A DNA stretch of 64,000 nucleotides, taken from the NCBI GenBank assembly GCA_028289605.1, contig JANQON010000005.1:1-64000 (forward strand), written 5' to 3'. This document shows positions 38,631 through 50,295 of this stretch, in pieces. Below the pieces are notes generated by a model. It was given only the letters and a program-made list of their open reading frames with translations, made no database searches and was not told the DNA's origin. The stretch comes from Hyphococcus sp. Its GTDB lineage: Bacteria; Pseudomonadota; Alphaproteobacteria; Caulobacterales; Parvularculaceae. Position numbers and translations under genes: made by a program. Numbering within the stretch: the stretch's first letter is position 1; each line of letters begins with the position of its first letter.

Positions 38631-39229
38631 GGCGCGAGGCACGCCGCAATGAACTGATCGAAGGCGCGGGCGCGGTGGGACAGGGCGCGTTTTTCAGACG
38701 CCTCCATTTCGGCGAATGACCGATCGTGACCCTCCGGAACGAATATCGGATCGTAGCCGAAGCCCTTGTCGCCGCGCGGCGGGAACCGCAGCGCGCCTTT
38801 GACCTCGCCCTCAAAAAGCGCCTCCTCGCCGTCAGGCCAGGCAAGGCACAGAACGCACACAAAGCGGGCGGAAAAATCCTCTGTCCCCGCGTCCGCGAGG
38901 GCCGCTTCCACTTTGGCCATGGCGGCGGCGAAATCTTTCTTCTCCCCGGCCCAGCGGGCGGAATAGACCCCAGGGGCGCCGCCCAGAGCGGTCACAGCCA
39001 AGCCTGAATCGTCGGCCAGCGCGGGTAGGCCGGACGCGCGCGCGGCCGCCCGAGCCTTCAATGCAGCGTTGCCGGCGAAGGTTTTTTCGGTCTCTTCGGG
39101 CTCGTCCAGGTCGAGGGCGCCGGCGGCGACCGCCTCAATCTGGAAGGGCTCAATCATCCCTTTGATTTCATTTAGTTTTCCAGCGTTGTGGGTGGCGATA
39201 ACAAGCTTCCCAGGCCCCAATTTCCGCAC
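38627..39229 (-). CDS. rdgB: XTP/dITP pyrophosphatase
   Basis: 200 residues, Ham1/RdgB family. [46 protein letters not shown] and [12 protein letters not shown] are the conserved motifs. It removes ITP, dITP and XTP from the nucleotide pool. It is the first gene of a unit with hemW and DUF2721, divergent from the operator-rich promoter at 39.25-39.32 kb. Confidence 0.96.
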
Positions 39230-39318: not shown

Positions 39319-39493
39319 GATAATCAACAAGACGGCGAAAACACCGCCGCACCCAAGAAACCGGCGCCGGGCCGGACTTTCAACCGGAGAAGAGCTCGAA
39401 AGGGCAAAAAAAAAGCGGCCGGACGAACCGACCGCTCAAGAAATCAGAATGAGTTGCGTTCAGTTAACAAGGGAAAAGAAAAGGAGAAACCCC

Positions 39494-39628
39494 ATGTCAC
39501 GCAAAAACTCGACAGATAACTACGGCGGAATCGGCGGCGTTGTCAATGGCTTGGCCGTCCTGGTCACCATCGGCCTGGTTGGAGCCGGCTATCTCTCCGC
39601 GATCGGCGCATTTGCGGGCGTTGCGTAA
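39494..39628 (+). CDS. small single-pass membrane protein, 44 aa
   Basis: First ORF of a compact operon. The ribosome site AAGGAGAAA lies just before ATG 39494. The protein has a polar Ser/Asn/Gly N terminus and one hydrophobic helix (about residues 16-42, GLAVLVTIGLVGAGYLSAIG). Its stop TAA shares a base with the next ATG (TAATG). A 5' untranslated region of about 170 bases precedes it and contains a hairpin (AGCGGxCGG / CCGxCCGCT near 39411-39434). Unknown function. Confidence 0.6.
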   Translation: MSRKNSTDNYGGIGGVVNGLAVLVTIGLVGAGYLSAIGAFAGVA

Positions 39629-45610: not shown

Positions 45611-45967
45611 ATGGCTCGCGTTACCGGGGGCACGTCCGCCCACGCCCGTCATCGCAAAATCGTCAAACGCGCCAAAGGGTACTACGGCCGTCGCAAGAAC
45701 ACGTTTCGCGTCGCCAACCAGGCGGTGGAAAAAGCCGGGCAATACGCCTATCGCGACCGCAGGGCGCGCAAACGCAATTTCCGCTCCCTCTGGATCCAGC
45801 GCATCAACGCAGCGTGCCGCCAATACGGTTTCACCTATGCGCGATTTATCAATGGTCTCGCCAAGGCCGGCATTGAGGTCGACCGCAAAGTGCTCGCCGA
45901 TATCGCCGTGCACGAGCCTGATGCGTTTAAGGCCTTGACGGAAAAGGCGAAAGCTGCGCTCGCATAG
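45611..45967 (+). CDS. rplT: 50S ribosomal protein L20
   Basis: 118 residues. [55 protein letters not shown] is standard L20, which helps start 50S assembly and represses its own operon in E. coli. It closes the rpmI-rplT unit, with an intrinsic terminator 29 bases downstream. The usual neighbour pheS comes only after another gene and its own promoter. Confidence 0.97.
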
Positions 45968-46216: not shown

Positions 46217-46543
46217 ATGAAACCCCTCCTGAGAACAGCGCTGGCTGTGCTCCTTGCCGGCTGGGCGGCGTTCGCGTCCGCGACGGCTGCCGGCGCGGAC
46301 TGGCCCCCTGAACGCGACGCCTTTTCCGATCCTGCCTATGTTGAATCCGTCTTCAAAACCATTGTGGAGACGGCGGTGGATACGTGCCGGGAAGAGCTCC
46401 GCGATGACGTGTTCGGCAATTTTCGGCTCGAAGCCTGCGTCGACAAAAAGGTCACCGCAGCGCTTGAGGCGGTCGGATCCCCGGCGTTGAACGAATTGGC
46501 GAGCCGGAACCCGCAATTTCTTCTCGTCGCCTTCGACGGATAG
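46217..46543 (+). CDS. secreted hypothetical protein, 108 aa
   Basis: Not recognised. Signal peptide (about 1-27, ending TAAGADW), then a short acidic helical domain with two Cys (about residues 59 and 75) that may form a disulfide. Probably periplasmic. AAAGAAAAGAAAA precedes the ATG. It is a single gene with its own promoter, between the rplT terminator and the pheS leader. Confidence 0.7.
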   Translation: MKPLLRTALAVLLAGWAAFASATAAGADWPPERDAFSDPAYVESVFKTIVETAVDTCREELRDDVFGNFRLEACVDKKVTAALEAVGSPALNELASRNPQFLLVAFDG

Positions 46544-46553
46544 AGGGCGCACC

Positions 46554-46581
46554 CTCGACAAAGGCTTTCCGTCTTTATAAA
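46554..46581 (+). promoter_or_regulatory. candidate pheS leader promoter
   Basis: CTCGACA (46554-46560) and TATAAA (46576-46581), spaced 15-16 bases. A start near 46588 would put the leader ATG (46590) almost at the 5' end, so the leader peptide could be translated without a normal ribosome site. Only sequence inspection supports this. Confidence 0.45.
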
Positions 46582-46589
46582 CGGGAAGC

Positions 46590-46661
46590 ATGAACATCGC
46601 AGGTCGTCACTTTCGCGAATGCTTTACGCGCGCGGTGGGCTTTTTCGGAAGCTTGCCGTGA
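46590..46661 (+). CDS. phenylalanine leader peptide, 23 aa
   Basis: A 23-codon ORF (ATG 46590, TGA 46659) with Phe at positions 8, 12, 18 and 19, including a Phe-Phe pair at 46641-46646 and one shortly before the stop. This is 4 of 23 residues, much above average, and it sits before a Phe-tRNA synthetase gene, like E. coli pheM. GGGAAG lies only 1 base before the ATG, so translation may be leaderless. It is the sensor of the attenuator that follows. Confidence 0.7.
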   Translation: MNIAGRHFRECFTRAVGFFGSLP

Positions 46662-46725
46662 CCGGATGACGACGGGCGAAAACGCCGATGAGCGTCATTC
46701 GGAAACGGATGGCGCTTTTTCTTTT
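46662..46725 (+). promoter_or_regulatory. pheS attenuator: antiterminator and terminator
   Basis: Terminator: an 11-bp stem 46691-46701 / 46706-46716 (two G-T pairs) capped by GAAA, followed by TTTTTCTTTT (46716-46725), ending 19 bases before pheS. Antiterminator: CCGGATGACG (46662-46671), beginning right after the leader stop, pairs with CGTCATTCGG (46693-46702), the 5' arm of the terminator. A ribosome stalled at the Phe-Phe codons would leave the first segment free and open the terminator; a ribosome reaching the stop would cover it and end transcription. Confidence 0.75.
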
Positions 46726-46744
46726 GATGATGGAGACGGACGCA

Positions 46745-47824
46745 ATGTCCGAAATAGAAACTCTCGAACGCGAGATACTCGCCAAGATCGCCGCCGCGGA
46801 AACAGCGTCTGCGCTTGAAGAGACGCGCGTCGCCGCCCTTGGGAAAAAAGGCGTCGTGTCTGAGCGTATGAAAACGCTGGGCAAGATGAGTCCCGAAGAG
46901 CGCAAGGAGATCGGACCGGCGCTCAACGGCTTGAAGACCCGCATCGCCGACGCCATCGAGGTCAAGAAAGCGGCGCTTGAAGAAGCCGCCCTTGACGCCC
47001 GCCTGGCGTCGGAAAAGGTCGACGTGACGTTGCCGGTGCGGCCTGAACCGAAGGGCAAGATCCACCCGGTTTCCCAGGTCACAGAGGAAATTGTCGCGAT
47101 TTTCTCCGCTATGGGCTTTGACGTCGCCGAGGGGCCGGACATCGAAGACGACTTCCATAACTTCACAGCATTGAACTTTCCGCCCGACCATCCCGCGCGA
47201 GAAATGCACGACACGTTTTTCTTCGAGCCGAAAGAGGATGGCTCGCGGAAGCTGTTGCGTACCCACACGTCGCCAGTGCAAGTGCGCACGATGATGACTC
47301 AAAAGCCTCCGATCCGCATTATCATCCCGGGACGGACATTCCGTTGCGATTCAGATCAGACCCATACGCCGATGTTCCATCAGGTCGAAGGATTGGTGAT
47401 TGATCGCGACTCTCATATGGGCCATTTGAAGGGCACGCTGGAAGCGTTTGCGAGGACGTTCTTTGAAGTGGACAGCGTCAAGACCCGCTTCCGGCCGCAC
47501 TTCTTTCCGTTCACCGAGCCGTCGGCGGAAATGGATATCGGCTATGAGCGCGTCGGCAATGAAATCCGCATCGGCCAGGGCGAGGCCTGGATGGAAATTC
47601 TGGGTTGCGGCATGGTGCATCCGAACGTGCTCAGAAATTGCGGGCTCGATCCGGATGAATATCAGGGCTTCGCCTGGGGGATGGGCGTCGACCGGCTTGC
47701 CATGCTCAAATACGGAATTCCGGACCTGCGCGATTTCTTTGCGTCCGACGCGCGGTGGATCGAACATTACGGCTTTGACCCGCTCGATCAGCCCAATCTC
47801 GCTGTGGGGCTCAGCCGCAAATAA
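46745..47824 (+). CDS. pheS: phenylalanine-tRNA ligase alpha subunit
   Basis: 359 residues from ATG 46745 (GGAG 9 bases upstream); upstream in-frame ATGs lie inside the terminator. N-terminal coiled-coil (about 1-85), then class II core: motif 1 near [20 protein letters not shown], motif 2 [26 protein letters not shown], motif 3 [25 protein letters not shown]. Expression appears controlled by Phe attenuation. Unusually, pheT does not follow: a glycosyltransferase starts 12 bases later, and a second one lies on the other strand. Confidence 0.97.
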
Positions 47825-47836
47825 GGCGGGGTTCGC

Positions 47837-49057
47837 ATGAAGCCGCGCATATTGTTTCTTGCGCCGAGTTACGCCTGTGCGCCCGTTACAGGCGGCGGTC
47901 AGCGGACCATGCTTTTGTACAATGCGTTGGCCGACGCATATGCCGTCGATGCGCTGGTTGTCGACGAGTGGGGTGCGCAAGGCGCCGACAAACTATTTGC
48001 ACACGGAGGATTTGATTATCTCCGCGTAACGCGGCCGGGCAAGCGCGGCGTTGTTGGGCTTTTGCCCGGCGTCAATCCCGCGGCCGCGGATAAGCTCGCA
48101 ATGGTGCTATATGGCCGAAAAGTCTCTTACAGACGTGATGCGAAGGCCGCTGTTGATTTTGGAGCCTATGATCTGATTGTCTCTCGATATTTGCGCCCGG
48201 CAGCGCAGGCGGGCGCGTTGGAAGACGGTGTCGAGACGCCGACGCTGATCGATATTGACGACCGAGACGATCAGGTCCTGGATGCGCGACTCGCCGAGTC
48301 GCCCAACCCCGCCACGCGGGCGATGCTCAAACGGCATCGAGACGAGATGCGCATTTTATTCCGTGAGTTGACGGAGAGGGCGGCGCACCTTTGGGTGGTG
48401 ACGGAAACAGATCGCACCGCAATCAGTCATCGATCGGTTTCTCTGTTGCCCAACATTCCATTTCACATACCTGCGGACGCACCCCCTAGGCCGCGGTCCA
48501 GTCATACGCTGTTATTTGTCGGCGCCGGCGGACACCGGCCGAATATCGAGGGCGTTTTTCGATTTGTCGACAAGGCGTGGCCAGCCATTCTCGCCGCCGC
48601 GCCGAACGCCAGGCTGCGCATCGTGGGCAGCGGTCCGTGGGCCCGCCATGCTGAAAAACTGTCGGCGCCGGGCGTTTCGCTCATTGGTGCGGTGGATGAT
48701 CTGGCAGCGGAGTACGCCGACGCCGCGATCGCCGTCTGTCCTGTTTTCGAAGGCGGCGGATCCAAGATCAAAGTTCTTGAAGCGCTCGCCCACAACTGCC
48801 CGGTCGTTTCGACGATCCATTCCGCCCGCGGGTTCGTGTCAGACCTGACGGAACGGGCGCTGGTGACGGCGCCGGACGAAGCGGGCATGGCGACGGCCTG
48901 CATCGCGCTGTTGCGCGATCCCGCCGCCGCCGCCGCGCGAGCGGCCGCAGGACGAGAAATTGTCCTCGCCAACTACTCACGCGGCGGATTCGCCGCCGCC
49001 GTCCTTGCGGCATGCCGCCGAGTGCTGGACGAAAGCCGTGGCTCGGAAAACCGATAG
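47837..49057 (+). CDS. family 4 glycosyltransferase between pheS and pheT
   Basis: 406 residues, GT-B type: LFLAPSYACAPVTGGGQRTMLLYNALA at the N terminus, LLFVGAGGHRPNIEGVFRFVDKAWP and the donor region FEGGGSKIKVLEALAHNCPVVST. This form resembles glycosyltransferases of exopolysaccharide clusters. With only 12 bases after pheS it is probably on the same attenuated mRNA. It is not a usual partner of pheS, so it looks inserted. Convergent with the next GT2 gene. Confidence 0.88.
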   Translation: MKPRILFLAPSYACAPVTGGGQRTMLLYNALADAYAVDALVVDEWGAQGADKLFAHGGFDYLRVTRPGKRGVVGLLPGVNPAAADKLAMVLYGRKVSYRRDAKAAVDFGAYDLIVSRYLRPAAQAGALEDGVETPTLIDIDDRDDQVLDARLAESPNPATRAMLKRHRDEMRILFRELTERAAHLWVVTETDRTAISHRSVSLLPNIPFHIPADAPPRPRSSHTLLFVGAGGHRPNIEGVFRFVDKAWPAILAAAPNARLRIVGSGPWARHAEKLSAPGVSLIGAVDDLAAEYADAAIAVCPVFEGGGSKIKVLEALAHNCPVVSTIHSARGFVSDLTERALVTAPDEAGMATACIALLRDPAAAAARAAAGREIVLANYSRGGFAAAVLAACRRVLDESRGSENR

Positions 49058-49081
49058 CCTTTCGGTCTCAATTCCCCTCGA

Positions 49082-49876
49082 TCACAGCGCGCGGGCGAGA
49101 GACCTCAGGGCGCGAGGCGTGTCTGCAAACATGGCCGCAAGGGCGAACATCTTGCGGTAGTACAATCGGCGTACGCCGTGATCGGCCATGATTTCCGTTT
49201 CGAACTGGTCGCACAAAATTCGCCAGTTCTCATAAGAGCGCCGCCAGTTCTTTCTGGTGATCTGATCAGGCCGATTATCGCGATACCAGATTGCGTGAAT
49301 CTCGGGGATGTGCATCCCTTTGACGCGGCGGATGAGCCTGCCGACGAATTCCACGTCTTCAAAACACGTCATCTGCTCGTTGAACAAAAAGCTTTCGACA
49401 ATGCGCCGACGAATGGCCAGTGCGTTAGTATGAACATAGCGCCACTTCAAAAACGGGGTCATTTCCGGCGGGCCGGAAGACACAGTCAGCGTTTCTCCGT
49501 TGGGTCCGATATGGCGGGTTGCGCTGTATACGAAATCCACTTCAGGATGGTCGGCGAGCGCGCTCGCCTGGGTCGTAAACTTGCCGGGCAAAATCTCGTC
49601 ATCGTCGTCCAGAAACGTGATGATGTCGCCGGATGCGTGCTTTATTCCAAGATTACGGCTTGCCGGGATCGGCAGCATCTTTGAAGACCTGACGATGCGC
49701 AACGGCGCCGTTGTCGAGATGTCGTTCGCCGCCAGCGGTTGATCGGCGGCGTTATCGACAACAATAAGTTCAAAATTCCCATAGTCTTGATTGTTGACGC
49801 TCGCCACGGCGCGGCGCAGCAACGCCAGTCGATGACGCGTCGGAATGATTACGGAAATCAGCGGAAGATCAGCCAT
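49082..49876 (-). CDS. family 2 glycosyltransferase between pheS and pheT
   Basis: 264 residues from ATG 49876. GT-A type: LISVIIPTRHRLALLRRAVASVNNQDY, IITFLDDDDEILPGKF (DxD). Together with the GT4 gene it separates pheS from pheT. The order GT4 (+) then GT2 (-) points to an imported piece of a polysaccharide locus; no mobile element is visible. The ribosome site is weak. Confidence 0.87.
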   Translation of the reverse strand: MADLPLISVIIPTRHRLALLRRAVASVNNQDYGNFELIVVDNAADQPLAANDISTTAPLRIVRSSKMLPIPASRNLGIKHASGDIITFLDDDDEILPGKFTTQASALADHPEVDFVYSATRHIGPNGETLTVSSGPPEMTPFLKWRYVHTNALAIRRRIVESFLFNEQMTCFEDVEFVGRLIRRVKGMHIPEIHAIWYRDNRPDQITRKNWRRSYENWRILCDQFETEIMADHGVRRLYYRKMFALAAMFADTPRALRSLARAL

Positions 49877-50295
49877 GGGGGAATCTTTTCGGCGCTTTAA
49901 AGGCTCAAAAGCGATTGGCGGCCTGTATTCGAGTCCCATCCACAGACGGATCAGGAATAGTCTGAAGTGCTATATTTCGATTATAATGTAGCTCGCCAAT
50001 CAAATCCATTTCTTTTTCCCCGGTAAACGTTTCCAAACGCGTATCGCTCCGCCTGTGCCGTCAGCGCGCCGCGACGTCCCGATTCCTCGGCGCCGAGCGG
50101 GACTCCTACGGCGAAACGCCAATCGGCCGCGGCCAGCCAACCCCCGCTGCGGCTGTCGCAGGGTATTGCGCTTGACTTAGCACCCGTCAGGCGTTTTGAA
50201 GACAAATTCGACTCTGGTCCTGAGCCGGATCCTCGCAGGAAAGCTCCACGCCAACCCGAACCTGTTGCAAAGAAAGGCGTTCGTCGCTTCGTCCC
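49877..50295. other. 419-base gap before pheT
   Basis: Holds the divergent starts of GT2 (minus) and pheT (plus). A TATAAT is at 49982-49987, and TTGACT with a weak TTTGAA at 17 bases is near 50174-50202. AAAGG lies 12 bases before pheT. I find no Phe-rich leader ORF and no T-tract hairpin, so pheT seems not to share pheS attenuation. A long ORF on the other strand here is a shadow of pheT. Confidence 0.5.

Follow-up and report, generated by a model that had tools for sequence, protein, structure and literature searches.

In Escherichia coli, pheM lies beside rplT; it is described as a short peptide rich in Phe, accompanied by alternate stem loops (PMC5371410, in excerpt). The 5′ end of rnTrpL of the alphaproteobacterium Sinorhizobium meliloti begins with the ATG of trpL (PMC7298713, in excerpt), and at hisS the sensing systems that precede a terminator have been exchanged in different lineages (PMC2965389, in excerpt). 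The locus described here lies in a 64,000-nucleotide stretch of a Hyphococcus sp. genome (assembly GCA_028289605.1, contig JANQON010000005.1, positions 1 to 64,000), hereafter the window, for which an earlier note made from the sequence had proposed a Phe attenuator in front of pheS. As in E. coli pheM-pheST, a Phe-rich leader is combined with a terminator and an antiterminator downstream of rplT and before pheS, but a small gene separates rplT from the leader and pheT is not beside pheS.

The earlier note had called the leader unrelated to pheM. In a search with the leader that was set against Rfam families rather than pheM directly, there was no match at the gathering score, and the lax threshold returned sub-threshold matches only (the best being ctRNA_p42d, which scored 17.8 bits where the cut-off is 50); the claim thus stands as far as Rfam families are concerned, to whose described leaders the leader and its stems appear to have no recognised sequence relation. 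In open PMC, no publication came up that describes attenuation before pheS in alphaproteobacteria; an excerpt of PMC1262725 there cites work that may contain an earlier prediction (Vitreschak 2004, Panina 2001). The mechanism is a known one, and its pheS-leader member appears to be new as far as the open PMC literature goes.

Anatomy and folding of the region upstream of pheS

The features of this region are listed in Table 1. The 23-codon ORF with four Phe codons, two of them adjacent, that the earlier note had described can be read directly, as can the strong GAAA-capped terminator with a T-tract before pheS, and the segment that follows the leader stop is indeed complementary to the 5′ arm of this terminator. 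The locus has the parts expected of a leader-peptide attenuator: a short ORF with adjacent Phe codons (in the window and eight relatives), an intrinsic terminator between this leader and pheS, a mutually exclusive antiterminator whose 5′ arm could be covered by a ribosome at the stop codon, judging from complementarity and position, and a downstream gene, pheS, that uses Phe.

Table 1. Features upstream of and including pheS in the window.
Feature	Position	Strand	Description and basis
rplT (L20)	45611..45967	+	Upstream ORF, which from its sequence we take to be rplT; homologous ORF between an rpmI-like ORF and pheS in relatives
Small gene between rplT and leader	46217..46543	+	No Pfam match at 0.001
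−35-like TCGACA	46555..46560	+	Found 5′ of every one of the nine Phe leaders
−10-like TATAAA	46576..46581	+	Spacer 15; ends 8 nt 5′ of the leader ATG
Phe leader peptide ORF	46590..46661	+	23 codons, peptide MNIAGRHFRECFTRAVGFFGSLP; ATG 46590, TGA 46659-46661, Phe codons at 46611, 46623, 46641 and 46644; sequence and relatives
Segment 1 (GTCGTCA)	46603..46609	+	Predicted to pair with 46667-46673 without a ribosome; minimum-energy folds, window only
Tandem Phe codons TTT TTC	46641..46646	+	Four codons ahead of the leader stop; register shared by 9/9 Phe-leader genomes
Segment 2, antiterminator 5′ arm	46662..46671	+	CCGGATGACG; abuts the leader stop; pairs with 46693-46702
Small GGCG/CGCC hairpin in antiterminator loop	46675..46686	+	Folds
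Terminator, GAAA-capped, whole	46690-46725	+	Fold, terminator scan (12 pairs), alignment
Segment 3, terminator 5′ arm	46690..46701	+	In the alternative fold, segment 2 is paired with 46693-46702
Segment 4, terminator 3′ arm	46706..46717	+	GAAA loop 46702-46705
T-rich tail	46718..46725	+	TTTCTTTT; sequence
pheS, phenylalanine--tRNA ligase alpha subunit	46745..47824	+	TIGR00468, E 1.2e-100; PF01409

The terminator folds at -19.3 kcal/mol (z -3.69) and the alternative structure, in which segment 2 pairs with segment 3, at -29.0 kcal/mol (z -5.08). In this comparison of the two structures, which the earlier note had suggested, both surpassed all 200 shuffles; the whole leader reached z -2.58, with 3/200 shuffles as good. 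The terminator scan alone is weak evidence, because it returned seven terminator-like sites in the window against 6.1 expected in shuffles. In masked folds, a ribosome whose A site was placed on TTT gave the antiterminator and one at the leader stop gave the terminator. Moving the A site one codon on, to TTC, already gave the terminator in the full-length fold, which is a point against the model, although a shorter transcript, to segment 3, kept the 2:3 pairing. When no ribosome was placed, segment 1 took segment 2 and the terminator formed, and a candidate 1:2 pause hairpin is seen in the minimum-energy fold computed for the window sequence.

The region is most likely an RNA switch that raises pheS expression when phenylalanine is scarce. 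RNA polymerase would transcribe the leader and a ribosome would translate the 23-codon peptide. If Phe-tRNA were scarce, the ribosome would stall at the tandem Phe codons, leaving segment 2 free to pair with segment 3, so that no terminator would form and pheS would be transcribed; with ample Phe-tRNA, the ribosome would reach the stop and cover segment 2, and the 3:4 terminator would halt transcription. If the leader were not translated, segment 1 would take segment 2 and the terminator would form too. The attenuated transcript is unlikely to extend to pheT, because two glycosyltransferase genes at 47837-49939 separate it from pheS, a group-1 gene on the plus strand and a family-2 gene on the minus strand, and for the same reason control of pheST as a unit is not a given. 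No convincing leader for a second attenuator was found in the 200 nt upstream of pheT at 12 loci (16 nt for L185), where most of the frames flagged as leaders turned out to be coding sequence, such as the end of pheS.

A scan of the window on both strands, which required in succession a start codon, tandem Phe codons close to a stop and a terminator, recovered the pheS leader and one minus-strand site near 39480, against none in 20 Markov-simulated 64-kb strands. The minus-strand site (39405-39500) comprises a short ORF, MGFLLFFSLVN, and a T-tailed hairpin, and precedes an ORF starting at 39229 on the same strand; since it contains, in reverse complement, a Shine-Dalgarno-like stretch that stands before an ATG of the plus strand, it was taken as a chance occurrence. 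Because this look-alike shows that sequence alone can mislead, the weight of the case lies on conservation.

Conservation of the terminator and of a Phe register

Relatives were compared, with "genus" denoting the 28 genomes grouped in the same genus as that of the window; among the best 80 of 579 confirmed PheS matches, the closest named ones belong to Marinicaulis and to Parvularculaceae MAGs (82-89% identity). A terminator search pattern, GCGTCAYYC...GRRTGRCGCTTT, was found in 25 of 60 relatives, namely 24 of the 28 genus genomes and one of the 32 others (G031), with no control hits. All 24 genus terminators lie between rplT and pheS. The genus genomes without the pattern (G005, G010, G018 and G024) are 76-89% complete, and a PheS match is missing in three of them and partial in G024. 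Each of the 25 matched genomes has the terminator at a single place (both strands of near-palindromic copies counted once), and a genome-wide repeat was ruled out by its single copy in the window's own genome. Another gene lies between the element and pheS in several genomes (for example G004, G020, G011, G013 and G017). In G020 and G004 (L144, L145 and L089) the Phe attenuator stands 5′ of other genes, followed by pheS, and we take one of the intervening ORFs to resemble a DmpA-type peptidase.

A Phe leader was identified in nine of the 24 terminator-bearing genus genomes (G000, G001, G004, G009, G015, G020, G022, G023 and G025). These leaders are 12, 23 or 31 codons long and together contain 44 Phe among 171 residues, compared with 3-6% Phe in RplT, PheS and PheT of the window. 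Their register is fixed in all nine, with a Phe run of FF to FFFF followed by four codons, TGA and segment 2; G001 carries LF in place of FF, and the leader of G020 ends in FFFFRNAF. In each case the TGA adjoins (A/C/G)CGG(A/G)TGAC and the distance from leader stop to terminator stem is 28 nt. Outside the Phe run the peptide varies from lineage to lineage, third-position changes preserve Phe at several sites, and the synonymous excess in frame among three close leaders is modest. The constant register and distance, together with masked folds that switch as predicted, bear out the earlier reading of these distances as fitting ribosome stalling, and the comparison strongly supports Phe attenuation of this type. 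On this sequence evidence, we assign a probability of about 0.87 to ribosome-mediated transcription attenuation before pheS that senses charged tRNA-Phe.

Pairing was counted in 28 aligned sequences, comprising nine with the leader, 15 from the genus without it and four from other genera. The 3:4 helix was paired in 95.5% of 336 cells (28-58% in slid controls; 0/500 shuffles as high) and the 2:3 helix in 88.6% of 308 cells (30-46% in slid controls). For the 2:3 helix no covariation beyond shuffles was detected (234/500 as high for cells paired, 70/500 for the covariation score), and this helix is characterised by strong complementarity, evidence from covariation being absent in the 28 sequences. 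The earlier note had proposed to look for kept Phe codons with covarying stems; the Phe run is kept in all nine leaders and both helices are kept, but the 2:3 stem shows no covariation beyond shuffles. In 27 of the 28 sequences the terminator arm has a longer complement upstream than shuffled sequence provides (p < 0.05); L088 gave p 0.14.

A covariance model, R1, matched 32/200 genomes of the order at E <= 0.01 and 37/62 genomes of the family at E <= 0.1. At 9e-7 or better it matched 31/62. These are the 24 genus genomes, G031 and six of the nine g6 genomes, and most of them had contributed rows to the model itself. New R1 matches in G118, G213 and G216 lie between rplT and pheS, and at the two weaker matches that were read (G024 and G219) pheS and rplT are missing nearby. 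In six loci of other alphaproteobacteria (L020, L052, L074, L080, L122 and L133), sequence complementary to the 5′ arm of a terminator between rplT and pheS lies upstream of it (z -2.7 to -3.4); these are possible rplT-pheS attenuators without a Phe leader.

The promoter is the weakest part of the predicted element, with a poor spacer and a poor -10 sequence, and the pair of boxes is absent from the output of a promoter scan that demands spacers of 16-18. TCGACA also falls within the loop of a GC-rich hairpin in eight relatives, which the same bases do not form in the window. The distance from this box to the ATG is 35 nt in five of the nine Phe-leader genomes (G000, G001, G015, G020 and G023), as expected for a start at +1, and from this spacing a leaderless leader mRNA is plausible, if from a weak promoter. 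These are not five independent cases, because four of the five form one clade in the trees. Such a start would resemble that of S. meliloti trpL, likewise an alphaproteobacterial attenuator; the differences are that trpL involves Trp rather than Phe, that the start proposed here is read from spacing in the sequence, and that the remaining four Phe-leader genomes have an ATG or GTG 54-64 nt from the box with a GGAG- or AGGA-like sequence upstream. G004 has an additional possible ATG at 24 nt.

Loci with the switch but without a Phe leader

In the other 15 of the 24 genus genomes the terminator and antiterminator lie close behind rplT, 64-110 nt from its stop in the genus genomes that were measured, without a convincing Phe leader, and all seven genomes read from two other genera are alike (G031, G032, G118, G169, G213, G214 and G216). 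Fourteen of these 15, and all of the seven, show no plausible ORF upstream in which Phe codons are adjacent. The earlier note had named relatives lacking Phe codons as refuting its proposal, and these genomes partly count against it; the Phe attenuator that it placed in this lineage is supported by the fixed register of nine of the 24 genomes and does not extend to the 15. G002 has a candidate TTG-start ORF, MSFFRPRPTPD, with 31 nt between its stop and the stem. In G016, an ORF in which Phe codons are adjacent overlaps the terminator and was ruled out as a leader, and short GTG-start frames (for example MTFHAEFD), which by eye start inside the conserved pairing segment 2 and in several genomes have another length or no stop, were not counted. 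Since neither these 15 genus genomes nor the few genomes from two other genera have a convincing leader, the switch exists without a Phe sensor, and a terminator and antiterminator alone are not proof of Phe sensing.

In most of 19 such loci tested, a segment complementary to segment 2 starts within ∼1-13 nt of the rplT stop, in many of them 6-10 nt after it; L002, L007 and L099 are exceptions. Compared with shuffles, this segment-1-type complementarity is only moderate, with 6/19 loci at z -2 or lower, and longer gaps between rplT and the element contain a self-complementary-looking insert. In our reading, a ribosome finishing rplT would cover the complement and so free segment 2; the alternative for these loci is an ordinary, partly leaky terminator.

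These loci are the argument for another view, in which the switch senses mainly the closeness of a ribosome behind RNA polymerase, not Phe, and in the window the leader ORF merely substitutes for rplT as the translated region. Attenuation of this coupling type has a precedent in E. coli rph-pyrE, and the 15 genus and seven other genomes with the element behind rplT, the complement soon after the rplT stop in many of them and the inserts in longer gaps would all fit. However, segment 1 is only moderate in these loci, and the fixed Phe register of nine genomes would be left unexplained, which makes this view improbable. It is very unlikely that the terminator simply ends an upstream transcript and that the Phe ORF is accidental: the other alphaproteobacteria that were read commonly have a terminator between rplT and pheS, and the window holds a look-alike Phe ORF with a terminator elsewhere, but the register is shared by all nine leaders, their distance to the stem is constant, segment 2 is conserved right after the stop, and the terminator in the window trails a pheS-proximal leader and not a gene end. 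Control of termination by a protein, PheRS or L20, bound to the conserved stems is scarcely credible, since base pairing accounts for the conserved columns and the Phe register would go unexplained, even though segments 2-4 are strongly conserved without the leader peptide.

Evolution of the leader

Stalling at Phe codons remains the preferred reading for the nine leader genomes, which are scattered on a PheS+PheT+RplT tree with an unresolved backbone. An AU test with these proteins rejects a single clade (p 0.006), and PheS alone does not decide the matter; a single origin of the nine was set aside on this tree, which does not join them. Because of the backbone, and because three of the genes in the tree flank the element and recombination could have carried them along with it, no direction of change is claimed. 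Six other Phe-leader genomes have an ORF similar to the small gene in the matching position (seven of nine with the window), with a remnant in G022 and none found in G020; at L004, a small-gene-like ORF lies upstream of rpmI-rplT. Across the leader genomes the box, small gene and leader register look homologous, which leaves three possible histories: transfer between members of the genus, loss on several occasions, or an error in the tree. The occurrence of the arrangement without a Phe leader, behind rplT (type A), in the genera g6 and g5 suggests that it may be the older form.

A tentative and rather doubtful scenario would have one termination switch served by two sensors within one genus. 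In most species the decision would fall to the ribosome finishing rplT, which would report on translation in general or on the supply of L20. In a minority, a Phe leader peptide that has a promoter of its own would have been added to, or lost from, the same antiterminator and terminator, its mRNA being leaderless in some lineages. As in the hisS attenuators, the same gene would have different sensors ahead of a terminator depending on lineage, but there a T-box and a leader peptide alternate between distant lineages, whereas here the same terminator and antiterminator occur with or without a leader in one genus.

The window thus adds a well-supported candidate Phe attenuator before pheS in an alphaproteobacterial family, with a sequence unrelated to Rfam leader families. 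The difference of sensor inside one genus is the more interesting part: close genomes that carry the same switch with or without the Phe peptide provide a natural comparison for the gain or loss of a sensor on an RNA switch.
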